Shown: positions 30,754-54,185 of the stretch, piece after piece
Numbering within the stretch: the first letter of the stretch is position 1
Layout: every line of letters starts with the position of its first letter
Source of the DNA: a virus
Length of the DNA stretch: 64,000 nt
Strand: one strand, 5' to 3'
IMG/VR virus record: IMGVR_UViG_3300027974_000020
Coordinates: 105,198 to 169,197 of that record
The notes under the pieces: model-generated
Told to the model about the DNA's origin: nothing
The model's database searches: none
Seen by the model: only the letters and a program-made list of their open reading frames with translations
Position numbers and translations under genes: made by a program

Positions 30754-32163
30754 ATGAGAAAGTCTATTTCCTGGATTGTTTCCGCATCTTTGATCGGAAC
30801 ATTATTTTTTATAAACAGTCCTCAAGTTGATGCTAAGGTATCAATGGACGTAATGCAGGCCACTGGTCCTGTACAGTTTAAATTAAATTTAACTAAAGCT
30901 ATTCCTTACATCTCTGCAAACATCCCGTACGATTCGGGATACAAGGGACAAGGTAGCTACGTAGTAGTTATTGATTCTGGTGTGCAATCTGATCACCCAT
31001 TCCTTGCAGGCAAAGTAGCTCTTGAGGCATGCTTTGCTCCTGTATGCCCTAACGGTACCACTAAGCAGATTGGACCGGGAGCTGCTAAACCAGTTCACTG
31101 GCACGGCACTCACGTAGCTGGAATTATTGCAGGTTCCAATGCAACCATGCACGGTGTTGCACCAGAGGCAAAGATTATTGCTGTCAATATCTTTAATGCT
31201 GCTGGTTCAACTTACGATGAAAATATTATTGAAGCACTTACGTGGGTTGATTCAATATCTTCTGAGTATAATATCGCAGCGATAAATATGTCTTTGGGTA
31301 CTTCTCAAGTATTTAAAACTTCATGCAATAATTATATTCCAGCACTTACATCTATTATCTCTACGCTTAAATCAAAAAATATTGCTACTGTTGTTGCCGC
31401 AGGAAACGGCTATGCATACGGCATGAGTTCTCCTGCGTGCATTACTGACACTGTTAGTGTGGCAGCAACTTATTCTGACAGAGATCTTATTACAAACTTT
31501 TCTAATGTTCATGAAGATACAGATCTTTCTGCTCCCGGTAGTGGAATAAATTCTTCAGATTCTTATTCAAGCTATCGTGTAGCTTCAGGTACATCTATGG
31601 CCGCACCAATGGTTGCTGGTTCATATGCTGTATATCGATCTAAATTTGGCATTCAATCAGTTGATAAAGTCACTTCTGATTTTAGAACTACTGGTATTGA
31701 TGCCAAAGATGATTATACTTCTGTGATTACAAAACGTATAGATTTTAAATCTTTATTTAGTACTGGTTTACCTCCAACTACTACAACAATACCTCCAACA
31801 ACAACAACTACTTTACCCGGAGCAACCACTACAACAACCACAACAATACCTCCAACGGATGAAGAAGTAGAGTTTGGTTTATCAATTCCTTATATTGTAT
31901 CTTTAAAGAAATATAAACCTAATACATCTTATATGTATGTAGATTTTGTTTATAGATACAATGAAACTAAATTATCTTCTTTCATTCTTGATTGTAGATA
32001 TAACAATTTGCCAAATGCTACAAAAGAAGTTTCAGACCGTAATAAAAATTATAATAATTATTTTATTAAAATTTCTACTGCGTCTATTCGTTCATGCAGA
32101 ATGGCTGCAGTAGCTTACGATGGTACAATCGGCCAATATAGTAAATTTGTTTTAGTTAAATAA
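30754..32163 (+). CDS. Secreted subtilisin-family serine protease (S8)
   Basis: 469 residues, SD AAGGAG. A signal peptide covers residues 1-27 (QVDA end). The catalytic triad is intact: Asp74 in VVVIDSG, His117 in HGTHVAG, Ser281 in GTSMAAPM, with oxyanion Asn in AAGN. A Thr/Pro linker (PPTTTT units, about 345-372) joins a roughly 95-residue beta-rich C-terminal domain with a Cys pair. A secreted subtilase is unusual for a phage. It may clear surface proteins during exit or entry, or process virion proteins outside the cell. Confidence 0.92.
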   Translation: MRKSISWIVSASLIGTLFFINSPQVDAKVSMDVMQATGPVQFKLNLTKAIPYISANIPYDSGYKGQGSYVVVIDSGVQSDHPFLAGKVALEACFAPVCPNGTTKQIGPGAAKPVHWHGTHVAGIIAGSNATMHGVAPEAKIIAVNIFNAAGSTYDENIIEALTWVDSISSEYNIAAINMSLGTSQVFKTSCNNYIPALTSIISTLKSKNIATVVAAGNGYAYGMSSPACITDTVSVAATYSDRDLITNFSNVHEDTDLSAPGSGINSSDSYSSYRVASGTSMAAPMVAGSYAVYRSKFGIQSVDKVTSDFRTTGIDAKDDYTSVITKRIDFKSLFSTGLPPTTTTIPPTTTTTLPGATTTTTTTIPPTDEEVEFGLSIPYIVSLKKYKPNTSYMYVDFVYRYNETKLSSFILDCRYNNLPNATKEVSDRNKNYNNYFIKISTASIRSCRMAAVAYDGTIGQYSKFVLVK

Positions 32164-36867: not shown

Positions 36868-37182
36868 ATGTTAAATCAAAATCCTAATGAACAAGATTTT
36901 ACTTGGCACAATAAAGCTGCATGTAAAGACCTCCCTGCAGATGTATTTTTTCCACTTAACTATAATGCCTCTTCTTTAGAACAAGCAAAACAAATATGTT
37001 CTAGTTGTCCTGTCAAGGTTGAATGTTTTCAAGATGCAATTAGCAACAACGTTTACGGTATATGGGCCGGCACTACAGAATACCAAAGAAGAAATATTGT
37101 AAATAATTATTACAATGGTGAATATAAAGTAATTACTTTAAAAGAAGCTAAGTATATTTTAAATTCAATAATAAAATCTTAA
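36868..37182 (+). CDS. WhiB-like Fe-S protein (copy 3)
   Basis: 104 residues. AACKD, CSSCPVKVEC and GIWAG give the four cluster cysteines and the turn. The C-terminal region (NNYYNGEYKVITLKEAKY) is not the usual basic tail. Follows the coiled-coil gene by 5 bp. Likely modulates host sigma factor activity. Confidence 0.92.
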   Translation: MLNQNPNEQDFTWHNKAACKDLPADVFFPLNYNASSLEQAKQICSSCPVKVECFQDAISNNVYGIWAGTTEYQRRNIVNNYYNGEYKVITLKEAKYILNSIIKS

Positions 37183-37227: not shown

Positions 37228-37980
37228 ATGAGCGAGAATTCATATTCTCAAAGCGATGATGATCTTTTCGATTACGATCCTTCTATCGAAAAACCAAAAG
37301 AACAATTATATAATCCGGTTTCAGATATTAAATCAGATAACACACTTCTTAGTGATTTATCCCGGAATATAAAAAATAATGATGACCAAACTTTTGATGG
37401 TCACACGGAAATACGTGTAAAATTAGCTGAAGCAATTCTTGGTTCTTACGACAAATGGATTAATAACGCTAGTTCTGTAGCCTATTTTAGCACCTTAAAC
37501 ACAATGCTTGACGAACTAACAAATGGTCGTTTTAGTGTTATGTATTTCTATAACACAATAGAACAAAAGATACTTCGTCGGATTAATATTAACACTTTAA
37601 TAGGTGAATCTTTTATTGTTAAAAATGACAACACTAAAGATAGTTTAAAAGATTTCTTAGGCAGAATAGGCATCTCTTATGATGGCCCTTATCTTTCAAC
37701 CTATGTAGGAACATTGGTTAGAATATCTAATCACATTCTTATACGGGAAAGAGCAATGTATCTTTCTTTGTCTGAAAGACTTCAGCTTCCTTGTAATCCT
37801 TTAATTTCTCAAGATAGTCCAAACTTTGAAGAAGTTATTGCACTAAGCCAATTTACTGTTACTGATCAACAAGAGAAAATTATTCAAAATCAATTTATCC
37901 ATAATTCTGACGAATACTTTTTAGAAAAACTTAACAATATTAATTTATCTAATATTAACTTTAAAATTAGATCTATATGA
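37228..37980 (+). CDS. Unknown 250-aa acidic protein
   Basis: A disordered acidic N-terminus (SQSDDDLFDYDPS) then a helical domain with FLGRIGISYDGPYLSTYVG and LSERLQLPCNPLI. No motif recognised. ATGA overlap with the site-2 protease gene suggests linked function. Confidence 0.6.
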   Translation: MSENSYSQSDDDLFDYDPSIEKPKEQLYNPVSDIKSDNTLLSDLSRNIKNNDDQTFDGHTEIRVKLAEAILGSYDKWINNASSVAYFSTLNTMLDELTNGRFSVMYFYNTIEQKILRRININTLIGESFIVKNDNTKDSLKDFLGRIGISYDGPYLSTYVGTLVRISNHILIRERAMYLSLSERLQLPCNPLISQDSPNFEEVIALSQFTVTDQQEKIIQNQFIHNSDEYFLEKLNNINLSNINFKIRSI

Positions 37981-38426
37981 ATTCAAAATTTAAGTCTATT
38001 TTTATGTTAATAATTACAGCTTCAGCCCTTGCTGCGATAAATTATACTATTGTTCATTCACCAACAGTATTTATTATCACTGCTGTACTTATTGCTCATG
38101 AATTGGGACATTATTTTGCTGCTATTTCTAATGGCGCAAAAGCAGACATCCCATATATTATACCTTTTCCATTTTTTGGAATAGGAATAACAAGAATTAA
38201 AAACTTTAAAAAATTAGATCCACAGGTTAGAAAGTCCATACTTCTGTTTGGACCTACTGCTGGTGTATTTACTGCTATTATAATTTTATTATTGTCTTTT
38301 ATAACTTCTCTTATAACTCCAATTTCAATTTTAATTATAGCATTGTTTGAAATCTTGTTTAATTACTTTGGTTCTGACGGAAAAAAGTACCGTCAAGCTG
38401 AAAAAGATATAGTGTTTGCTGCTTGA
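37977..38426 (+). CDS. Site-2 protease-like membrane metallopeptidase (M50)
   Basis: 149 residues. Two to four membrane helices hold AHELGH (His41, Glu42, His45), the M50 zinc motif. GPTAG and a later NYFGSDGKKYRQAEKD could supply the distal Asp ligand (N-x-x-x-x-D-G in the family). It is the minimal S2P core, without PDZ or CBS domains. It could cut membrane-anchored anti-sigma or host signalling proteins, which would fit the three WhiB genes. An M50 peptidase in a phage is very unusual. Confidence 0.75.
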   Translation: MNSKFKSIFMLIITASALAAINYTIVHSPTVFIITAVLIAHELGHYFAAISNGAKADIPYIIPFPFFGIGITRIKNFKKLDPQVRKSILLFGPTAGVFTAIIILLLSFITSLITPISILIIALFEILFNYFGSDGKKYRQAEKDIVFAA

Positions 38427-38469: not shown

Positions 38470-38691
38470 ATGAAAAATGAACAGGAACTTCGCAATACAA
38501 TATCTGAATACCTTGATGATTGTTGTTTTGATATTCACGGAATATCCTCTTCATCTTCTCTATCTTCTGCTTCCGAAGTTCAGCTTGCTAGAATTCTAAC
38601 AAAAATAGCCATAGGAACTGCTTCCATATGGTGGTCTGTAATTGAGTTTAGAGATTTTATATCTAACAGAAAAATATCGAAAGGGTTGTAA
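38470..38691 (+). CDS. 73-aa protein, unknown
   Basis: A Ser-rich middle (GISSSSSLSSAS) and an amphipathic helix (LARILTKIAIGTASIWWSVIEF). Start ATG 38470 with AAAGA upstream. TAATG overlap with the next gene. Confidence 0.5.
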   Translation: MKNEQELRNTISEYLDDCCFDIHGISSSSSLSSASEVQLARILTKIAIGTASIWWSVIEFRDFISNRKISKGL

Positions 38692-39050
38692 TGACTAATA
38701 TTGATAGATTTCATTTTTCATTTGAAATGGCTTCTAAAGTAAAAAAACAATTGGAAGATGAAGCTTTTATTTTAAAGCAAAGAATTGATAAAATTGTTGA
38801 TCATTTTACAATAAGCGACACACCCATATTGAGGTTTATTCTTAATATGGAACCTAATAGAGATGACTTAAAAAAATTATCTAAAGCCTTAGATCGCTTG
38901 GCTGATATAGTCCAAGTTTATGAAGGCATTATGACAAAGCTTTCTGTTGTTAAAGCAGCGGAATCAGATCCAAATTGGTTTGCTTTGGCATTTGGTGATT
39001 TTGAAAAAGAGATTGATCAAGATATAGAAACGTTCTTTAACGCAAATTAA
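38691..39050 (+). CDS. 119-aa helical protein, unknown
   Basis: Charged helices (VKKQLEDEAFILKQRIDKIV, DDLKKLSKALDRLADIV). Precedes the ubiquitin-like cassette by 22 bp and may be co-transcribed with it. No family recognised. Confidence 0.55.
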   Translation: MTNIDRFHFSFEMASKVKKQLEDEAFILKQRIDKIVDHFTISDTPILRFILNMEPNRDDLKKLSKALDRLADIVQVYEGIMTKLSVVKAAESDPNWFALAFGDFEKEIDQDIETFFNAN

Positions 39051-39072: not shown

Positions 39073-40137
39073 GTGAATTCTAAAGCTGATTATACATTCG
39101 TCCAGGAAAATGATTCTATTGTTTTTCGTTCTAAAGTAAAGTCGTTTGATCTTGATCATGTTACCGATAAAGATTTAGCGTCTTTTTATTTTAGCTTCTC
39201 TAAATATGCCACTATGGATACAGGTTTACTTCCCCTTGATGGAACAGGTCTTCTTGGTATACGTAAAGCCGGCGATCATACTCAGGTGATATACCAGCAT
39301 AAGCCTGGTACATATTACGTTAATTGGGGCCAGTACGAAAGAGATGTTAATGCTAAAAAATATTATCTTGCTCAACCTTATAGAATTATAATTGTAGATT
39401 TTATCAATGACAATTTACTAGGTGCAAGAACTTTTTATTCCCCAATCCCAGCTACACATCCGGATATCCCTTTGTACCATGTTAATCTTCCTAACATAAA
39501 TTGCAGAGGATATCGAGGCAATGCTGTTGGTTGGATTTGCTTGTATCACAATGAAGATTGGTCTAATCTTCCATTTAACGAAAGACTTGTAAAAGCTATT
39601 GATCGCTGTTCTGGCACAGAAGCTTACAATGATGGAAACATGAGTGAGACTGATGGTCCAGGTTTTTATCGTGATCACCATAGAGATAATTCTGATTACC
39701 AGTATTTGTGGAATCCACAAGAATGGGAGAGAAAAACTTCTCAAGAAGGTTTTCTTTGGACCTTAGATGAAGATGCTTGGATTCCAGTTCATGTTGATTC
39801 AATTGATTCACAATCTCAACACAATCCAAAAGGAGAAGTTCTTACTCTTAAGATGGCTATTTTTGGAAATTATAAAGCCTATTATGACGATCAATATATT
39901 CCCAAACCAATTAATGCAATTCAACGTAATGAATTTAACAATGGAATTAAATTAATAACCAGTTGGTTTACACGAGCTTTTGTTACTGCAAAAACTAAGT
40001 ATAGTGGTTTAGATTTATTTTCTGAAAGTTCTAAAGTTAGACAAGAAAATATTAAAAATGTTTATGATCTTCAAACTGAACACGAAGAAGATGAACCAGA
40101 TGAAGATCACAACGAAGATGACGAAGGACCATTTTAG
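39073..40137 (+). CDS. E2-like ubiquitin-conjugating-type protein (PRTRC-B/Bil-like)
   Basis: 354 residues from GTG 39073 (GAAAGG upstream). The core shows strands then PLYHVNLPNIN and GNAVGWIC156LYHNEDW, like the P-x-x-x-P, G-x-V/I-C arrangement before the catalytic Cys of E2 folds and PRTRC system protein B. AYNDGNMSETDGPGFY follows. It ends in a long acid run finishing DDEGPF, an SSB-like tip. First gene of the JAB, E1, Ubl and AAA+ cluster, so a role in passing the activated Ubl to targets is inferred. Catalysis at Cys156 is a prediction. Confidence 0.55.
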   Translation: MNSKADYTFVQENDSIVFRSKVKSFDLDHVTDKDLASFYFSFSKYATMDTGLLPLDGTGLLGIRKAGDHTQVIYQHKPGTYYVNWGQYERDVNAKKYYLAQPYRIIIVDFINDNLLGARTFYSPIPATHPDIPLYHVNLPNINCRGYRGNAVGWICLYHNEDWSNLPFNERLVKAIDRCSGTEAYNDGNMSETDGPGFYRDHHRDNSDYQYLWNPQEWERKTSQEGFLWTLDEDAWIPVHVDSIDSQSQHNPKGEVLTLKMAIFGNYKAYYDDQYIPKPINAIQRNEFNNGIKLITSWFTRAFVTAKTKYSGLDLFSESSKVRQENIKNVYDLQTEHEEDEPDEDHNEDDEGPF

Positions 40138-40201
40138 TTCTTTAAAATCTAAATATAGAATTTCTTAATAATTTATTTAATTTTAATATGAAAGGAATGT
40201 T

Positions 40202-41956
40202 ATGTCTCAAGTAACTATGGACCAATTAAAACATTTTTGGATGCCCTCAGGGGTCCCATGTTTTATCGCAGATCGTTCAGACATCTGCGACTTAGTAGAG
40301 GGTATGGGTTTCCAAATTTATTACCTTTTGGCTAATGATATTAAAGAAACTAAAGTAACACCTAATACTGCTCACCAAGGAAAATCTTATGGATATGGTG
40401 CAACTACATATACTTATAATTCTCCAGCCGCTCCTCCACCTCCAATCATTACAAAAAATACAAAATTATTTAAAGTAGTTAATAATTTTGTTGGAAGATC
40501 AATAGCTATTTCCGCCGACCCTATGCCAGATGAGTTTTTGTCAATTAACGAATCTTGCGAATACTGCATGCCCCCAATTCCTAATGTAATCATTGATAAA
40601 CTTGATCAATTCTTTAGACTTGTTCATAGTCAACATGGTACAGAATCAATTGTTATTCTTACTTACAATATGAATGCAACTGGCTCAGAAGGTTGGGGCG
40701 TTCTTGTTCCAGATCAAACAAACACTCCAGCACATTGCAAATACGATGCTGACAGCATTGCTGAATTAAAACCTGAAGATGTTATGATTGTCGGATCTGT
40801 TCATAGCCATCCAGAAATGAGTGCTTATGCTTCTGGCACAGATCATGCAGACCAAGCAGATTTTGATGGTTTACATATTACTTATGGTTGGCAGAAGTCT
40901 CAAAACAATGGTGCAACTCAGTACCATCTTGAACTTCAAATGTCTGGTCAAAATTATATTCTTAAACCAGAAGATGTTTTTGAAGATATTTCACTTTTAA
41001 AAGATCCTGATCCAGACGTTGTAGAATGGTCCAATAAAGTAAAAAAAGTTCACCCCCCGTATTCAGCGGGGGTCCCGTCACAAATAACTCAGCAACAATT
41101 TCAGGCTACCCCTCAACGAGCTATACAACAAACGGCTGGGGACTTTAAATCTTTTCACAGTAGTACCCCTCAAATGCAAGAGGCACTATTGAATTTAAAG
41201 CTTCCCTCAGATGCTATTGTTGCTATTGAAATTCAACTTGAATCAGACAATAAAAGCTCTTGCCCATGTTGTGAATATGAAATTGATATTCATGATGTAA
41301 ACAGTGGAGCTTGTACTGTTTGTGATATTCCTTTAGTTTCTACTACTGATTCTATAAATCAAATGTGTTTAAAAATTCATGATTATATTTCCAAAAGAAA
41401 GATTAGTCATACTTCAGCAGTATATCTTTGGGGTTACGATGATAAAGACACCAGAGATTTTATTATAAACATTACTGAAGAATATGAATTTCATGCTTCT
41501 AAATATTCTACTAGTTATTTAGATTTAGGTAATTCCGTTGTACCGGTTACTTCTTCTCACTGGGATTATTGGAGAGATGACGTTGATGATGATGACTTTT
41601 TATTCAACAGTCTTCAGCATGCAACTGCCTGTTGCAACACTCCGATGACTAATGCTCACAGCCAATGCGAATGTCCTGTTATGCTGTTTAAAGAAGATTT
41701 AGTTGATTTTGATATTTATGTAAATAAAATAGAATCTGACATATATAGTTATGACGGAAATTGTTTTAATTGTTCATATTATCACACTACTGAATGCCCT
41801 GCTTTCTACAGTTTAGTTTCTGCATTTGTAACTGATAAAAGTAAATTTCTTTTAGATGAAAACACTCCTAAGATAACTGATTGTTCAAAATTTAAATTTT
41901 TTACTTACGAAGATGAAAGTTTACAAAATCAAACTATTGATATAACAAAAGAATAG
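40202..41956 (+). CDS. JAMM/JAB deubiquitinase-like isopeptidase with Cys-rich extension
   Basis: 584 residues. The JAMM motif is intact: H201-S-H-P-E-M-S-A-Y-A-S211-G-T-D214 (HxHP...SxxD), binding catalytic zinc. An upstream strand (VILTYNMNATGSEGWG) should hold the Glu. The C-terminal 230 residues carry zinc-ribbon motifs (CPCCEYE, CTVCD, then CCNTP, CEC and CFNCSYYHTTEC). These enzymes trim Ubl precursors or remove Ubl from targets. The next gene (E1) begins 11 bp later. The extension is not typical of known JAB proteins. Confidence 0.85.
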   Translation: MSQVTMDQLKHFWMPSGVPCFIADRSDICDLVEGMGFQIYYLLANDIKETKVTPNTAHQGKSYGYGATTYTYNSPAAPPPPIITKNTKLFKVVNNFVGRSIAISADPMPDEFLSINESCEYCMPPIPNVIIDKLDQFFRLVHSQHGTESIVILTYNMNATGSEGWGVLVPDQTNTPAHCKYDADSIAELKPEDVMIVGSVHSHPEMSAYASGTDHADQADFDGLHITYGWQKSQNNGATQYHLELQMSGQNYILKPEDVFEDISLLKDPDPDVVEWSNKVKKVHPPYSAGVPSQITQQQFQATPQRAIQQTAGDFKSFHSSTPQMQEALLNLKLPSDAIVAIEIQLESDNKSSCPCCEYEIDIHDVNSGACTVCDIPLVSTTDSINQMCLKIHDYISKRKISHTSAVYLWGYDDKDTRDFIINITEEYEFHASKYSTSYLDLGNSVVPVTSSHWDYWRDDVDDDDFLFNSLQHATACCNTPMTNAHSQCECPVMLFKEDLVDFDIYVNKIESDIYSYDGNCFNCSYYHTTECPAFYSLVSAFVTDKSKFLLDENTPKITDCSKFKFFTYEDESLQNQTIDITKE

Positions 41957-41967
41957 GAGTAAATTAC

Positions 41968-42729
41968 ATGACTGATAATAAACGTTTTGTTGTCATTGGT
42001 GCTGGCGGAATAGGCACTTGGCTTATCGCTGGTCTTGTTAGGCTCTTGGAATGGAAACTTCCTGGTTCAGGTTTAATTATAGTTGATGGTGATAACTATG
42101 AAGAGAAAAATAAAGAGCGTCAAGATTTTGGAAAATTAGGTAATAAAGCAGTTGTTAAAGCAGCTGAACTTACTTCTCAATTTCCTTCTACCACTATTAT
42201 TCCAGTTCCTAAATGGGTTGTTTCTGACGAAGATACGGGTGTATCTGCAGATGACGATGCACCAAGGATTAAAGCATCTCAGCTTATCCGCGAAGACGAT
42301 GTAGTGTTTGCGGTAGTAGACAATTTTGCAGCACGGAAGATTCTATTTGATGCAGCCGCTAAATTAGACAATATTGATGTTTTTACTGGCGGCAATGATG
42401 ATTTATTGTTTGGTTCTGTTTATCATTATCAAAAAAGAAACGGTATACAAGTAACAGAACATCCCGTTACGTTTCACCCTGAATACGAGAATCCACCAGA
42501 TAAAAATCCTGGTGAACTTTCTTGTCAAGAAAGATCTAAACTTGAAGGTGGCACTCAGCTATTGGCTACAAACATGGCTGTTGCGTCCTTTATTTTAGGA
42601 AGAGTCCATAAGACAATAGTGCTAGATCAAAGTCCTGACGAGACCGAAATCTATTTTGACTTAGGACTTGGTAAAGCTGAACCATACAACAGAACAGTTT
42701 CTCAGGTTACACAACCTGTGATGATATAA
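41968..42729 (+). CDS. ThiF/E1-like ubiquitin-activating adenylyltransferase
   Basis: 253 residues. The Rossmann ATP site VVIGAGGIG spans residues 8-16. IIVDGDNYEEKNKERQDFG matches the D-x-D ... N-x-x-R-Q block. ELSC186QER in a late loop is a candidate catalytic Cys. Fits single-domain ThiF proteins of PRTRC/Bil-type operons, which adenylate the Ubl C-terminal Gly and form a thioester. The Ubl gene follows at once. Confidence 0.88.
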   Translation: MTDNKRFVVIGAGGIGTWLIAGLVRLLEWKLPGSGLIIVDGDNYEEKNKERQDFGKLGNKAVVKAAELTSQFPSTTIIPVPKWVVSDEDTGVSADDDAPRIKASQLIREDDVVFAVVDNFAARKILFDAAAKLDNIDVFTGGNDDLLFGSVYHYQKRNGIQVTEHPVTFHPEYENPPDKNPGELSCQERSKLEGGTQLLATNMAVASFILGRVHKTIVLDQSPDETEIYFDLGLGKAEPYNRTVSQVTQPVMI

Positions 42730-42745
42730 AAAAAGGAGATATAAC

Positions 42746-42997
42746 ATGGATCAATCATCCAATCAACAGCAGCCATCTGCTGGAAATGGAATGGCAAACG
42801 TTAGATTTGGCGTTTACAATCAACCAGGCAATATCGCTGGTAAGTCTGTAAAAGACGCTAGAGACCAGTTTTCACGCCTTTGGGGAATTCCTCAAGATGC
42901 AGTTGCCTACAAAGGCAAAGATAAACTCGACGAAAACTATGTCATTCAAGCAGGCGACAACGTGGAATTCCACCGTCGTGCCGGCGAGAAGGGTTAA
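42746..42997 (+). CDS. Ubiquitin-like beta-grasp protein with C-terminal Gly
   Basis: 83 residues. After a Gln/Ser-rich start comes VRFGVYNQPGNIAGKSVKD, a helix and FSRLWGIPQDAVAYKGKDKLDENYVIQAGDNVEF: the strand-strand-helix-strand order of a beta-grasp, like PRTRC protein C. It ends RAGEKG, so the mature C-terminus is Gly without further processing and ready for E1 adenylation. Its neighbours (E2, JAB, E1, AAA+) make conjugation likely. Confidence 0.85.
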   Translation: MDQSSNQQQPSAGNGMANVRFGVYNQPGNIAGKSVKDARDQFSRLWGIPQDAVAYKGKDKLDENYVIQAGDNVEFHRRAGEKG

Positions 42998-43010
42998 TTA
43001 GTTTTTAAGA

Positions 43011-43061
43011 TCGTGGGGGAATCCGTGCGCCTTTCTCATGGGTTCCCCCACACATTTTTTT
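43011..43061 (+). terminator. Intrinsic terminator after the Ubl gene
   Basis: GTGGGGGAA pairs with TTCCCCCAC around about 20 nt and is followed by ACATTTTTTT. It separates the conjugation genes from the AAA+ gene, or makes the latter a read-through gene. Confidence 0.85.
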
Positions 43062-43094
43062 ACAAGGCACTGATCTATTCATAGAAAGAATATT

Positions 43095-44696
43095 ATGCTC
43101 TTTAATCAAATAAAATTAGGCTATCCATCTTTATGGATTAAATCAACAGAGTTTGATAGATTAATTAATTCAATTGTTCAATATAATTTTAGAGAGTATT
43201 TTACAATTGATACTGAAAAAGGATTTTCTCAGTACATTGATGGATCTTGGAAACCAGTTCTTGTAGACATTCCAGATCCAGAACAGGGTGGGACTATATT
43301 AACTACCCCATTTGATTTGTCTTTGTGTTACGAATATATTAATAAATATATTGAATCTTCTAATAAACAAGTTAGTCTTATTATTAAAGTTTTTGGCAAG
43401 CCTGAATCAATAATGAATTATGTTCCTTTAATATCATCTCTCCAATCCAAGCACCGTAATATGTTTTGGAGTGATGAAATTGCAAGCTATCCTCAAATTA
43501 TATTTTTATCTTCTTTTGATGTTCCAGAAGATTATTCTTATTTATTTAAATCTTCTAATTTTGCATTTCCAAACGCGCAAGAATTATACCAAATCATTGA
43601 TCATATTAATGTTTCTTCTGAAGGCAAGTTTGTTGCTCAAGATTCTATTAAAGAAGTAGTTAGATCTGGTTTAGGTCTTAATGAATCTGAATTTATAGAT
43701 TATTGCTTACAGTCTGTAGTCGAAAATGGAACTGTTGATCCTAAATATATTTATGATAATAAAATGCGTTCCATTAAACAGCATGGAATTCTTGAAATTA
43801 TTAAGCCAACAATGTCTTTTGATAACATTGGTGGTTTAGATAATATTAAAGACATAATCAGAAGAACTGCTTTTCTACGCGCAAATAAAGATCAAGCTGA
43901 TAAGTTCGGGGTAGTTCCAATCCGCAGAGTATTGATGGTGGGTATACCTGGTACTGGTAAATCTGCTATTTGTCAAGCTACTGCTAACGAGCTTCAACTT
44001 GACCTTGCTAGAACTGGTATAAGCCAAGTAATGAATTCTTTTGTTGGTCAATCAGAAGCTAATATGCGTGCAGTATTTAATCAGATTAAAGCAATGAATC
44101 CTCTTTGTGTTTGGATTGACGAGTTTGGTCGCGACCTTTCTGGTGGTGCTTCTTCTGCTTCTGTTGACGCTGGCACTACAGACAGAGTTCATGGTGAGTT
44201 TTTGACTGGTCTTCAAGAGTTGCCAGAAGAAACATTTTTGATGTGTGCTGCCAATCAATTGGATAATCTTCGTCCAGAAATGTTACGCGCAGATAGATTT
44301 GATAAGATTATATTTGTTGGTATGCCTTCGCTTAATGAGAGATTAGATATTCTCAAAATTTATCTTAAAGAGATCAACACTGATCACCAATTTGATTATT
44401 ATGCTCTTGCAGAATCAACTGAATATTTTACCGGTGCAGAAATTTCTTCTTTAATTCGAGAAGTAAAATTCTTTGTTGTTTCTCAAGATTTTAGACCTAT
44501 TAATACTCAAGATATTATATCTTATGTTCCAAAAATTAGAAATACAATTTGGAACAAACACAGAGACATGGTTCAGTCTATGTATCAGTTCGCTCTCGAA
44601 CAATGGGACTGGGCCTCGACAGAACAATATAATGATGCTAATATGATTATATCTGGCAGATCTTCGGTATCCCCTGAAGTATCTTGGAAAATATAG
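43095..44696 (+). CDS. AAA+ ATPase, unfoldase-type (FtsH/CDC48/Mpa-like module)
   Basis: 533 residues. An N-terminal 230-residue domain of its own kind precedes one AAA+ module: Walker A GIPGTGKS (G283-S290), Walker B VWIDEF (Asp342, Glu343), a sensor-1 Asn in CAANQLDNL, and RADRFDKIIFVGMP. The domain order and FDNIGGLDNIKDIIRR entry are typical of proteasomal and CDC48-type ATPases. Placed beside Ubl genes and upstream of the proteasome-like gene, it could unfold Ubl-tagged proteins. Confidence 0.85.
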   Translation: MLFNQIKLGYPSLWIKSTEFDRLINSIVQYNFREYFTIDTEKGFSQYIDGSWKPVLVDIPDPEQGGTILTTPFDLSLCYEYINKYIESSNKQVSLIIKVFGKPESIMNYVPLISSLQSKHRNMFWSDEIASYPQIIFLSSFDVPEDYSYLFKSSNFAFPNAQELYQIIDHINVSSEGKFVAQDSIKEVVRSGLGLNESEFIDYCLQSVVENGTVDPKYIYDNKMRSIKQHGILEIIKPTMSFDNIGGLDNIKDIIRRTAFLRANKDQADKFGVVPIRRVLMVGIPGTGKSAICQATANELQLDLARTGISQVMNSFVGQSEANMRAVFNQIKAMNPLCVWIDEFGRDLSGGASSASVDAGTTDRVHGEFLTGLQELPEETFLMCAANQLDNLRPEMLRADRFDKIIFVGMPSLNERLDILKIYLKEINTDHQFDYYALAESTEYFTGAEISSLIREVKFFVVSQDFRPINTQDIISYVPKIRNTIWNKHRDMVQSMYQFALEQWDWASTEQYNDANMIISGRSSVSPEVSWKI

Positions 44697-44704
44697 GAGT
44701 TAAA

Positions 44705-45325
44705 ATGGATTTTGAAAACATCGATGAGTTTATAGAAACGGTTGAACAACCAACTGTAACAGATACTCTACAAAAAGAATACGATAAAGACCTTTATAAA
44801 AAATGGTTTCGTTCTAAAACTCAGAGTGGATTTTTGTCCATTAAGCCTTGGTATCAGGGTTTAAAATTTAAAGTTGATATTGGCAAAACTTCTATCGATG
44901 GCAAATTATTGTCTAGCACAATGGTTTATTTAGACGCTATAGATTTTTCTGCTTATCTTAATTCTGTTGCTAATGGCACTGGTAAATTAAATTATATTCA
45001 GAATGATAAAAGTGGTGTACCAACAACTGAAGGATTTGTATCTTACGGTGGCGGCATTATAGAATCAAAGCCTATATCAAGAATATTTAAATCTCATTAC
45101 TGGCAGAATTCAGACCAGTCTTATGATGATTCTGCTTTTGTATGGAAGTGCGGTCATTTTGCTGCTCGAAAAACTGAATCAGGAGCTTTTATACCAGACA
45201 TGAAAACATCTCTGTCTGTAGATAGTATCAAAGTTACAAGAGCTGAACTATGCAGCATTGCAAATATTATTAACCTATCTTTAATATCTCATGTTACCAA
45301 TAAGTCTGATTGGTACGCAGTATGA
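44705..45325 (+). CDS. Unknown 206-aa protein
   Basis: Start ATG 44705 with AGGAG. Beta-rich (SFLSIKPW-type strands: GFLSIKPWYQGLKFKVDIG). One WKCGHF. Directly after the AAA+ gene and coupled (ATGA) to the coiled-coil gene. No family recognised; an adaptor role is only a guess. Confidence 0.55.
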   Translation: MDFENIDEFIETVEQPTVTDTLQKEYDKDLYKKWFRSKTQSGFLSIKPWYQGLKFKVDIGKTSIDGKLLSSTMVYLDAIDFSAYLNSVANGTGKLNYIQNDKSGVPTTEGFVSYGGGIIESKPISRIFKSHYWQNSDQSYDDSAFVWKCGHFAARKTESGAFIPDMKTSLSVDSIKVTRAELCSIANIINLSLISHVTNKSDWYAV

Positions 45326-45690
45326 TTTACGATAACGATAATGATACTCTCCAGGCTACTTTAAACACTATGCTTGATACTTTAAATAAAACTGTTCAAA
45401 ATTCTTTTTCTGATTTAGACAATCGTATTGAATCTTTAGAAAAACAAATGGCTACTTTAGTATTGGCTTACGGCGAGCAAGCTGTTTTTATGGAAGCTTT
45501 AATTTCTCAAATTTCTTTTGCTTCTGAACAGGCTCAAAAGTCTTTTCATGAGACTCTTAAAGAAGCTAGAAAGTCTATGTTAGAGGTGATGAAAGATGGA
45601 GCAGAAAATCTTGTGGCCCCAAGCGATCCAGTCCTTGGACAAGCCATTGTCAATATGGCTTCTGAAAAGTTATCTGACATTAATAAATGA
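45322..45690 (+). CDS. Coiled-coil protein, possible adaptor
   Basis: 122 residues; a long amphipathic coil (LNTMLDTLNKTVQNSF, DNRIESLEKQMATLVLAYGE). Overlaps the previous stop by ATGA. Coiled coils serve as substrate-docking parts in proteasomal ATPases, but here this is inference. Confidence 0.55.
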   Translation: MIYDNDNDTLQATLNTMLDTLNKTVQNSFSDLDNRIESLEKQMATLVLAYGEQAVFMEALISQISFASEQAQKSFHETLKEARKSMLEVMKDGAENLVAPSDPVLGQAIVNMASEKLSDINK

Positions 45691-47885: not shown

Positions 47886-49403
47886 ATGATAAATATCTTA
47901 AATTACGATAGTCAGTATACTGAGTTGGTTACTCTTAATTTTACTAAATATTCTGAAGATTATTGTTACGTAAAAGATTCATATTACCATAATACAAGAA
48001 GTATTCTTCCTTCTATTTTTAATCTTTTTATAGATGCTAGTTATCAAGTTCCAACTCGTTATATAGATCACGACAGGTCTATGAAGAGTACAATTGTTAA
48101 TCCGAATAGTTTGTATCCTATTGCTGTTCGGTATGTAACTACAGATAATGTTTACGTAATTGAACGACCTCCTTTTAAGCTATCTGTTGATTTTAAAAAT
48201 TCTCGAGCTGCTCATAATTCTCCAAAAGTAGAACCTGTTGAAATTTGGATTCCTTGGACTGTAATGGTTCTTCCTTGGAATCAAGTAGTTAATGGTGATC
48301 CTAGCAATTTAAGACTCTATTTTAATGATGGTCCAATACAATCCTTAGATGATTGTGTAGTAGCACCTTATCTTCCTAATTCTTATTCAGATGGAAGAAT
48401 ATGCTGGTCTCATTCTTATAATCAGCTCTTAACTCAGCTTAATGTTTCTGAACCAAATACTGTAGATGTTAATTATTTATATTCCTCTATACTTAATGAT
48501 TATTTAATGGGTGGATGGAACACGGATCTAAATTTTCATTATCGTTATCTTCAGTATAGAGATTCTCACACATTTAATGCACAACTTGAATCTAACAATT
48601 ATCCAATGATTTCTTTATTTGTTGATACATTAAAAACAAATTTAGATTTTTCAAATAAAGTTAGGTCAATTCTTGAAAGTAAGTTTGGATTAACTAAACG
48701 CAGAAGTCTTTCTTGTGTTGATGGTTCTATAATAAAAGATAAAAATAATGTTCCTTGTTCTAAAGATATATACCTTAAATTATTTGCTTTTATGTCTGCA
48801 GCGTCTCTTTCTGATACTCTTGCTTTTGTTTCTGAACTAAAAAGTATTTCACATTCTTCAAAAAGTATTTATAATAAAAAAAATACTATTTTAGAAATAT
48901 CTTCCGTTAATCAAAATGCACACAATAATGATGATAGCATTACTTTATTAGCTTCTACATCCCCGATTAGAAGTGCCGCTGTTAATAATTCTATAGACCC
49001 AGAATTGCGAACAATGAATGCTATCGTAGTTTATGCTAAAGATTATACTCCTGAGGAATCTGGATTTGTATCTTATGCTTCAAGAAGAGGTGATAATCTT
49101 GAGGCTATTTTAAGTGCGGATTTTGCATCGGAAAGTGATTTGCATGAGCTTATATATTTGTCAATGTATAAATTATGTAAACATAGATATAGTTATGAAA
49201 CACAAGATGAGCATAAGCCTTTTGTTGTTGTTATAAATGGTAACACTGGGACATTATCCATATATGATACTGACTATTTAGATGTTTTATTTTCTCAAGT
49301 ATCCAGTAGAATAAAAGAATCTATGTCTAAAAACACTCATTTGAAATCTAATATTCGTGTATCAACCTATGTTGAACAGCATCTAAAGGAGCAAAATGCT
49401 TGA
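47886..49403 (+). CDS. E2-like protein (paralogue 2)
   Basis: 505 residues. VYVIERPPFKL, IPWTVMVLPWN, LRLYFNDGPIQSLDDC, then PYLPNSYSDGRIC173W. This strand, P-N and G-x-I-C order matches that of the protein at 49396 and, more weakly, the E2-like product at 39073. Cys173 is the candidate active-site residue. The C-terminal half (from about 230) is unique. It could pass Ubl to a separate set of substrates. Overlaps the next gene by 8 nt. Confidence 0.5.
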   Translation: MINILNYDSQYTELVTLNFTKYSEDYCYVKDSYYHNTRSILPSIFNLFIDASYQVPTRYIDHDRSMKSTIVNPNSLYPIAVRYVTTDNVYVIERPPFKLSVDFKNSRAAHNSPKVEPVEIWIPWTVMVLPWNQVVNGDPSNLRLYFNDGPIQSLDDCVVAPYLPNSYSDGRICWSHSYNQLLTQLNVSEPNTVDVNYLYSSILNDYLMGGWNTDLNFHYRYLQYRDSHTFNAQLESNNYPMISLFVDTLKTNLDFSNKVRSILESKFGLTKRRSLSCVDGSIIKDKNNVPCSKDIYLKLFAFMSAASLSDTLAFVSELKSISHSSKSIYNKKNTILEISSVNQNAHNNDDSITLLASTSPIRSAAVNNSIDPELRTMNAIVVYAKDYTPEESGFVSYASRRGDNLEAILSADFASESDLHELIYLSMYKLCKHRYSYETQDEHKPFVVVINGNTGTLSIYDTDYLDVLFSQVSSRIKESMSKNTHLKSNIRVSTYVEQHLKEQNA

Positions 49404-50523
49404 TACAATCAGTGTTGTAACTGTTAATTCCCCTTATAATTCAATATATTCTGTTGCTAAAGTTGTTACTCAATATGGCAGTGAGTATGTTTTGAATCAA
49501 GAGCAGACAAGAGATTATTTACTTAATCATTATTCTTTGGGATATACTACTTTTTCTTCTCATTCTAAACCTACTGGCCTTATGCCTCCTGGTGTAAAGG
49601 CTATTTTCCCTAATGTAGTTGTTTTTGAGCGTCCGCCAACTTATCAGAATGTATTCTATATTGCAGATACAGTATCTGAACGAATGTCTGAAGAACAACA
49701 TGTTTATAGAGTTGCTCTTCCTTGGCAGCTTTATGTTGCTGTTTATAATTCTGATTTTTATTTAACTAATGTTTATATGTATTTTATGGATGCGCCTCTT
49801 ACTTCTATACAGCAGAATATTTATGCTCCAAACATTCCCAATTTCTTTGCAAATGGATTATTGTGTAGGCCTAATTTTTCAACAATGGATGAAGTAGAAA
49901 GATATTCAAAAGATGTTTCTGGTATTATTCATTCTACTTTTGATTGGGTTTGGAATAACGGAACCAATCACGATTTAACTGAATCAATGGTTCTACTTCC
50001 AAAATATACTAAAGATCTTTCTACTACAGTAATCGGTGGCTTACCTATATCTGGTCATTATTTTGATAAAAGCTACTGCAATGGTTATAAGCTTTCTGTA
50101 GCACAAGTTAAAACAGCTTTTGCTTCTTGGGAAAAAATTGAAATTAAAGATATTTTAAATTATAAATGGGTTTCTCCATCTACCCAACTTCATGATGTCA
50201 ACAGTGATAATTATATGTCTTCTATTCAAGAGTCTGCTCCTTATTCTGATAATGTTTATAGTTGGTTATCTGACCATTATTCCGATGAAGATGAAGACGA
50301 TATTATTAATAGAATGGATAATGGAGAATATGATATAGCTGAATATATTTCTTATCTTATAGATAATAATTATGTTTCTCCTCCATTTAATAAAAGAGCT
50401 GATTTTTCTTATGAGCAAATGTTAAATGTTATTTTTTCAGAAAACAATACTTTAAGAAGAAAAACAGTAGGTATTTTGTCTGATATTAAAAAAATAACTG
50501 AGATACTTCAACCTGTTTCTTGA
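49396..50523 (+). CDS. E2-like protein (paralogue 3)
   Basis: 375 residues. VVVFERPPTYQNV, LPWQLYVAVYN, VYMYFMDAPLTSI, then PNIPNFFANGLLC157R align block by block with the upstream protein. It has Cys157 at the E2-like position and WNNGTNHDLT matching its neighbour's GGWNTDLN. Tandem duplication is clear. Strong SD (AAAGGAG) inside the previous gene's end. The C-terminus is acidic then helical. Confidence 0.5.
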   Translation: MLDTISVVTVNSPYNSIYSVAKVVTQYGSEYVLNQEQTRDYLLNHYSLGYTTFSSHSKPTGLMPPGVKAIFPNVVVFERPPTYQNVFYIADTVSERMSEEQHVYRVALPWQLYVAVYNSDFYLTNVYMYFMDAPLTSIQQNIYAPNIPNFFANGLLCRPNFSTMDEVERYSKDVSGIIHSTFDWVWNNGTNHDLTESMVLLPKYTKDLSTTVIGGLPISGHYFDKSYCNGYKLSVAQVKTAFASWEKIEIKDILNYKWVSPSTQLHDVNSDNYMSSIQESAPYSDNVYSWLSDHYSDEDEDDIINRMDNGEYDIAEYISYLIDNNYVSPPFNKRADFSYEQMLNVIFSENNTLRRKTVGILSDIKKITEILQPVS

Positions 50524-53576: not shown

Positions 53577-54185
53577 ATGACTACCATAGTTGCCCTCCAA
53601 GGTGACGGCTTTGCTTTAGTTTCTTGTGATTCCCGTATATCAGATGTAGACAGTAGCGGTTATATTTCACAAGTTAGCACCTTAAAAGAAGGTACTGCAA
53701 AGGTTGCTTTAAACGGCAAATATCTTTTGGGTGCTGCTGGCGATCTTAGGGCAATAAACATTCTTCATCATGCCTTTACTCCTCCTCCACCACCTGCTGG
53801 AATAAAGGGTAAGAAACTCGATCAGTTTTTTACTGTTAAGTTTATTCCTGCACTTCGTGAATGTTTTGAATCTCAAGGCTATGCTACTCCAGACAAAGAC
53901 GAGAAAATGCATATGGCTGAACATGATTCATTATTGATTGTTGCTGTATGCGGGAATATTTATGTTGTTGACGGCGATTATTCTTGGCTATCTGATACAT
54001 CCGGAGTCTATGCTCTTGGTAGTGGTTCTTCTTATGCTCTTGGAGCATTAACCGCGTTAATGCCAAAGACTGCACTAACGGTGCAAACAGCAAAAAAAAC
54101 CGCACTTAAAGCAATGAGTATAGCTTCTAGATTTGACCCTCACACTGGATCTCCATTTCATACTTTTGTTCAGGAAAATCAATAG
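53577..54185 (+). CDS. Proteasome/HslV-like Ntn hydrolase
   Basis: 202 residues. MTTIVALQ then SCDSR at 16-20: after Met removal Thr2 is the nucleophile. Asp18 and Lys42 (GTAKVAL) match the D17/K33 pair of proteasome beta-type subunits, and GAAGD and YALGSGSSYALGAL are two family blocks. Starts with TTIV as in HslV. The gene lies 9 kb after the AAA+ unfoldase and has a leaderless promoter. It would form the proteolytic part of a Ubl-linked system. A Pro run (PPPPP) after about residue 68 is unusual. Confidence 0.8.
   Translation: MTTIVALQGDGFALVSCDSRISDVDSSGYISQVSTLKEGTAKVALNGKYLLGAAGDLRAINILHHAFTPPPPPAGIKGKKLDQFFTVKFIPALRECFESQGYATPDKDEKMHMAEHDSLLIVAVCGNIYVVDGDYSWLSDTSGVYALGSGSSYALGALTALMPKTALTVQTAKKTALKAMSIASRFDPHTGSPFHTFVQENQ

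Follow-up and report, generated by a model that had tools for sequence, protein, structure and literature searches.

Ubiquitin-like, E1-, JAB- and E2-like genes form a conserved cassette in a contractile-tailed phage and its relatives: a probable phage-borne protein-tagging pathway

Introduction

Machineries that tag proteins with ubiquitin-like modifiers (Ubl) have so far been studied in cells and in bacterial anti-phage defence, but not in phages. The described operons nearest to the locus reported here belong to the bacterial type 6d/PRTRC class (PMC1779556), which combines a standalone Gly-ended Ubl, a JAB protease, an E1 and an E2 with a conserved Cys, in the order E2-JAB-E1. The Bil/Bub systems share the same E1, E2, Ubl and JAB logic, but they are bacterial and immune-associated, and Bil has a double-Ubl BilA and a CEHH-type BilB (PMC11354881). 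TapI and TapK of phage lambda also pair a Ubl with a JAB; however, they come without an E1 or E2 and sit in a tail-assembly locus. A role in virion tagging or assembly was reportedly once proposed for them. We found no description of a phage E1/E2/JAB/Ubl set in the open-licence literature, and Ubl, JAB and ThiF go unmentioned in a survey of jumbo phages (PMC7824862).

Here we describe a gene cassette in the right-hand 64 kb (the window) of a 169,197-base IMG/VR virus record. We consider that it encodes a functional Ubl conjugation and deconjugation pathway belonging to the phage itself, and we put the probability of this reading at roughly two in three.

Results

Gene content of the cassette and its phage setting

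The preliminary description had placed five consecutive genes at 39073-44696, and their coordinates, + strand and short gaps were confirmed. They encode, in order, the E2-like protein E2a (354 aa; 39073-40137, from a GTG start), a JAB/JAMM metalloprotease (584 aa; 40202-41956), an E1/ThiF-type activating enzyme (253 aa; 41968-42729), a Ubl modifier with the C-terminus RRAGEKG (83 aa; 42746-42997) and an AAA+ ATPase of the classical clade (533 aa; 43095-44696). On the same strand, the gene for a conserved, co-inherited 119-aa protein lies directly upstream of E2a (38691-39050). The AAA+ gene is followed by its conserved partner, which encodes 206 aa of no known family with 55-78% identity across relatives (44705-45325), and by the gene for another conserved, co-inherited protein of 121 aa (45325-45690). 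Beyond the five genes of the preliminary description, we observed two further E2_D-like genes on the + strand at 47886-50523, namely E2b (505 aa; 47886-49403) and E2c (375 aa; 49396-50523), which overlap by 8 nt. The predicted full set thus has three E2-like proteins beside a single E1, a single Ubl and a single JAB, and the components of a type 6d set all occur together in the cassette. Pfam recognises the JAB, ThiF and AAA proteins, while E2a and the Ubl have no Pfam match.

Outside the window the record has genes for the large subunit of a terminase (9e-33), a portal protein (1.5e-54), a tail sheath, a baseplate wedge and a 3,504-aa ORF of tape-measure size, and because of these genes we assign it, from sequence, to a contractile-tailed phage. 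Close relatives of the E1 were absent from the bacterial genomes searched, where the nine matches were mostly 24-33% identical (one short segment reached 43%), and no plasmid relatives were found. A bacterial contig is rejected on the structural genes and on these low identities, so that the set does sit inside a phage, as had been claimed. The record also holds three WhiB genes, one of them at 36868-37182, a short way upstream of the cassette. Since WhiB is, to our knowledge, restricted to Actinomycetota and their phages, the host probably belongs to the Actinomycetota. Genes for a subtilase (PF00082; window 30754-32163) and an M50 membrane protease (37977-38426) were seen in the same region.

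Conserved features of the E1, Ubl and JAB proteins

The ThiF/E1 assignment held (PF00899, 8e-13). In the alignment of relatives the GxGGxG, RQ and VDN motifs and Cys186 are invariant, and an adenylation domain and a conserved Cys are both present. The family has only one conserved Cys, and hence lacks CxxC zinc pairs. When the E1 profile was compared with the PDB, UBA5 was the best match (4.7e-20), ahead of MoeB, ThiF and other E1s. The single-domain phage E1 therefore resembles UBA5, but the UFM1/UBA5 system is eukaryotic and its Ubl and E2 are unrelated to those of the phage in sequence.

The 83-aa product, which had been called a beta-grasp protein ending in Gly, does end in GEKG, and a model based on 25 relatives gave a beta-grasp fold with pLDDT of ∼90 in the core and a free C-terminal tail that exposes the Gly. 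The top Foldseek matches of this model in the PDB were only ubiquitin variants, SUMO and NEDD8 (E 1.5e-4, probability 1.00). The KG end is conserved in 25 sequences. We looked for loss of the C-terminal Gly and observed that it is kept in every relative: each Ubl either terminates in KG or carries one or two further residues after it, as in GEKGSL (L007-L009), GEKGNI (L034), GEKGLA (L126) and KKGC (L043, L045). As such tails would have to be removed before activation, the JAB is likely to be functionally tied to the Ubl, and Ubl precursors of some lineages would need trimming by it. On the other hand, the end is KG and not GG, which counts against conjugation.

In three loci of distant relatives (L042, L043 and L045), a segment with weak resemblance to SAP/Rho_N is fused to the N-terminus of the Ubl. 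Two of these fusions, in L042 and L045, have a second E1-like gene and a gene of the RNA polymerase beta' type nearby. The second E1-like protein (L042:10244-11119 and L045:9278-10120), encoded downstream of the SAP-Ubl, is divergent, lacks the SC motif and ends in ETGAA.

The JAMM isopeptidase motif HSHP...SxxD of the preliminary description is intact as H201-S-H203-P-x6-S211-x2-D214, with all its residues invariant, and the Prok-JAB match (PF14464, 1.5e-6) exceeds the Pfam cut-off. The C-terminal half of the JAB is Cys-rich and, judged from its sequence, probably binds zinc. The protein as a whole is far more divergent than the E1 and Ubl.

Three E2-like proteins

The GTG start of E2a at 39073 lines up with ATG starts of its relatives. 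Cys156 (GWIC), already proposed as the E2-like Cys, proved to be invariant in 27 relatives together with Cys144. The E2a profile aligned with Prok-E2_D proteins of other phages over 91 columns (hhalign, E 4e-6). E2a was also found, at 1.8e-4, by an E2_D HMM that contained no sequence of the close family and was made from four phage contigs, one fecal phage contig and L041, of which the second E2_D protein was taken. The homology ends right before the Cys, and Cys156 is equated with the E2_D Cys by motif only (N-x-x-...-G-x-I-C). Although the AF2 model of E2a is confident (pLDDT 86.6), Foldseek gave no UBC-fold match in the PDB; there was no PDB sequence match either, and at E ≤ 0.001 the model matched only uncharacterised viral proteins in BFVD. 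The folds expected in the preliminary description are supported by structure for the Ubl and not for E2a, whose assignment rests on Prok-E2_D homology. By these profile comparisons E2a is a homologue of E2_D, and E2 activity would be expected of it from the published prediction for the family (PMC1779556).

The same HMM, applied to 5,026 ORFs, scored E2b (3.6e-11) and E2c (1.3e-11) better than E2a. Their hhalign matches to E2_D were 2.2e-8 (P 95) and 2.7e-11 (P 97), respectively, and a profile-profile link joins E2a and E2c (3.1e-7). E2b has Cys173 in LPNSYSDGRIC, invariant in 16 sequences, and WNxD at 211-214; E2c has Cys157 in NIPNFFANGLLC, invariant in 15, and NxD at 191-193. The two are a tandem pair in the relatives. 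Among the 5,026 ORFs, which included dozens of cassette-free phage loci, E2b and E2c were restricted to cassette phages or to contigs cut at that place, and none occurred in phage loci having a proteasome homologue without the cassette. The recognition of E2b and E2c as further Prok-E2_D-like proteins is new here. A 304-aa Prok-E2_D protein downstream of the AAA gene in L041 (15424-16338; Pfam 4.6e-4, below the cut-off) bridges E2b to classical E2_D.

A different way of reading these proteins is that the E1 and Ubl conjugate directly, as in E2-independent tagging of the SAMP/Urm1/TtuB kind, and that the E2-like proteins serve as scaffolds or as adaptors for substrates, and not as cysteine-transfer enzymes. 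The missing PDB matches of E2a fit this view, as do the length and divergence of the E2-like proteins (E2b has ∼25% identity across relatives). However, each of the three proteins keeps the Prok-E2_D Cys without exception in its relatives, and even very remote phages and bacteria have E2_D fixed beside JAB-E1, and we regard direct conjugation as unlikely.

The C-terminal tail of E2a is acidic and lacks the extension found in most relatives (for example L004, L008 and L010), in which some 200-300 Cys-rich (CxxC) residues follow; in L003 this extension is a separate ORF of 261 aa. The Cys-rich extension of E2a, or the Cys-rich half of the JAB, could be a zinc-binding, E3-like part.

Conservation, co-inheritance and selection

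Searches of IMG/VR with the E1, E2a and the 206-aa gene found 41, 46 and 44 loci, respectively, and the close family comes to ∼50 distinct phage contigs with the cassette block. The order E2a-JAB-E1-Ubl-AAA-206 aa-121 aa is kept throughout the relatives, with an insert of ∼2 kb between the Ubl and AAA genes in L041, L124 and L126. Wherever enough upstream DNA was present around the 206-aa gene (41/41 loci; the remaining 3 of the 44 begin at a contig end), the E1, Ubl and AAA genes were all found.

The AAA+ claim was sound (PF00004, 9e-24, with the lid PF17862). The protein is CDC48/PAN-like, and is perfectly co-inherited with the cassette. Remote AAA homologues do occur in phages without the Ubl cassette, which counts against the conjugation reading, as does the ∼2-kb gap between the Ubl and AAA genes in some relatives. 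The possibility that the AAA and 206-aa genes form an independent phage module was rejected, as the 206-aa gene was only ever found with the cassette.

From a single pair of relatives, L008 and L009 (dS ∼0.4), we obtained dN/dS values of 0.017 for the E1, 0.012 for the Ubl, 0.067 for the AAA, 0.20 for the JAB and 0.26 for E2a. The E1 and Ubl are therefore under very strong purifying selection. A decaying or chance gene set is excluded because the cassette is conserved, co-inherited and low in dN/dS.

Relation to type 6d/PRTRC and Bil operons

The preliminary description had likened the set to both Bil and PRTRC operons. The likeness to PRTRC/type 6d, which extends to the E2-JAB-E1 order, stands. 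The best NCBIfam matches were PRTRC_A for the JAB (8.5e-5; 22.2 vs 101.8 bits) and PRTRC_ThiF for the E1 (25.9 vs 144.75 bits), both below the curated cut-offs by wide margins. We observed no ParB in the whole record, and no matches to PRTRC B-F among the proteins of the cassette and its neighbours. Unlike type 6d/PRTRC, the cassette has three E2-like genes, has gained an AAA+ gene with its 206-aa partner, and is phage-borne. The likeness to Bil was not supported, as PADLOC gave only weak E1-E2 hits on the cassette. Neither a double-Ubl BilA, a CEHH-type BilB nor an IAD+AAD BilD was found there: the Ubl is single-domain, and so is the 253-aa E1. An AAA+ gene is part of neither Bil nor PRTRC, but is present here.

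These comparisons suggest that large mobile elements (plasmids, phages), and not host immunity, are where the 6d/PRTRC type belongs. With a single E1 and a single Ubl shared by several E2-like proteins, the predicted set shows a eukaryote-like branching, which we have not seen in the bacterial operons of the open-licence literature.

A proteasome homologue in the window

At 53577-54185 the window encodes a proteasome-family protein (PF00227, 1.3e-6), in which the N-terminal Thr (after Met), Asp18 and Lys42 are invariant. Its presence allows the idea that the phage has a counterpart of the ubiquitin-proteasome system, in which the three E2s would tag chosen host or phage proteins, the AAA+ would unfold them, and either this homologue or the host proteasome would degrade them. 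If true, the phage would have programmable protein turnover during infection. The homologue accompanies the cassette in 15 records, and its relatives number at least 464 loci in IMG/VR. However, an E1 was missing from 18 of the 21 proteasome-bearing phage records that were tested, and a cassette subclade (L018-L024, L041) has no proteasome gene. Because it is common in cassette-free phages and missing from this subclade, we rejected it as a dedicated partner of the cassette, and the whole scheme looks doubtful, at perhaps long odds.

No Actinobacteria-specific phage carrying the proteasome homologue AAH was reported in Fuchs 2021 (PMC8665760); the cassette phages may carry AAH or something related. 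Outside the window, at ∼100440-101870 of the record (G000), lies the gene for a 474-aa ATPase that matches phrog_4871, 'ATP-dependent protease' (6.8e-104). One 267,766-base contig (IMGVR_UViG_3300042868_009074; L025 and L027) has two different whole cassettes separated by ∼215 kb. Each is accompanied by a proteasome homologue, and the contig is possibly two phages joined in assembly.

Relatives of the core genes in cultured phages

Vibrio phages D69, D181 and D148, Salmonella phage Arash, Bacillus phage KLEB27-3 and Acinetobacter phage ME3 have homologous JAB and E1 genes, and all but ME3 have an E2_D gene. The E2_D-JAB-E1 order is common to D69, Arash, KLEB27-3 and Alicyclobacillus contigs. 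In contrast to the cassette, the cultured phages have a single E2_D, and we saw no AAA gene adjoining their core genes. These genes of the cultured jumbo phages are labelled hypothetical, structural, PRTRC_A or ThiF; in ME3, ThiF and PRTRC_A are annotated separately. The annotated E1 of D69 starts at an internal ATG; the full frame (L016:5872-6816) holds GCGGTG and DGDEVEFKN, and its GxGGxG nucleotide-binding region lies upstream of that ATG.

In the GenBank record of Arash, the E1 and E2_D homologues are annotated as structural proteins. Gp246-Gp248 appear in the proteomics list of its particle preparation (PMC10585845, Table 2), which suggests that these are expressed. However, RNA polymerase and RNR are also among the 116 listed proteins, the authors themselves raise carry-over for the preparation, and GenBank and the proteomics table do not fully agree in their gene labels.

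Discussion

In the conjugation and deconjugation pathway that we favour, the JAB would first trim the Ubl in those lineages that have extra C-terminal residues. The C-terminal Gly would then be adenylated by the E1, held as a thioester on Cys186, and passed to C156 of E2a, C173 of E2b or C157 of E2c. The three E2-like proteins would offer three routes, by which the Ubl may be attached to different target proteins during infection. The JAB would remove the tag, and extraction or remodelling of the tagged proteins might fall to the AAA+ ATPase and the 206-aa protein encoded next to it. Because the cassette lies beside SSB, UDG, helicase and RecA-type genes on its own strand, and the SAP-like Ubl fusion lies near an RNA polymerase gene, the likeliest targets might tentatively be sought among those proteins of the infected cell that associate with DNA or act in transcription.

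The E1, Ubl and JAB could also be read as a sulphur-carrier system of the ThiS/MoaD or CysO type, with the Ubl carrying sulphur for metabolism and the JAB releasing the product. A ThiF-type E1, a small beta-grasp Ubl and a JAB do occur in cysteine/siderophore sulphur-carrier operons as well (PMC1779556). However, the neighbourhood of the cassette has no rhodanese, cysteine synthase, thiamine or molybdopterin genes; the absence of CxxC zinc pairs from the E1, the presence of E2-like proteins and the KG end in place of GG also speak against such a function, which we hold to be very improbable.

Just as little weight is given to counter-defence, in which cassette proteins would reverse or poison host conjugation of the Bil/CBASS type. 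Ubls of the host could be acted on by the JAB and E1, JAMM proteases are plentiful in Borg elements (PMC12660748), and Hor 2024, as cited in PMC12660748, describes phage proteins to which Ubl is attached by bacterial Bil. Such a role would not need a complete set that includes a conserved Ubl, however; the likeness to Bil is limited to weak E1 hits, and the JAB, the part best suited to the task, diverges far more than the E1 and Ubl. The tagging or assembly of virion proteins, to which the structural annotations and particle listing in Arash might point, is the least likely role of all, since the cassette lies on the strand opposite to the structural genes and roughly 40-140 kb from them, and since the Arash preparation may contain carry-over and has inexact gene labels.

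Bacterial Ubl conjugation is known as machinery of cells, and Bil as one of the means by which bacteria fight phages. In a phage clade where an E1, a Ubl, a JAB and three E2-like proteins are kept under strong constraint, the question is reversed, and becomes what the phage tags, and when. With the core set present in cultured phages, this question can be tested now. Upstream of the E2_D-JAB-E1 genes of Arash, we noticed an unannotated 66-aa ORF (L268:107-307) that overlaps gp251c in another frame and ends in RTGTKG; it is possibly the Ubl of a cultured phage, and is the sole such candidate among the cultured relatives.
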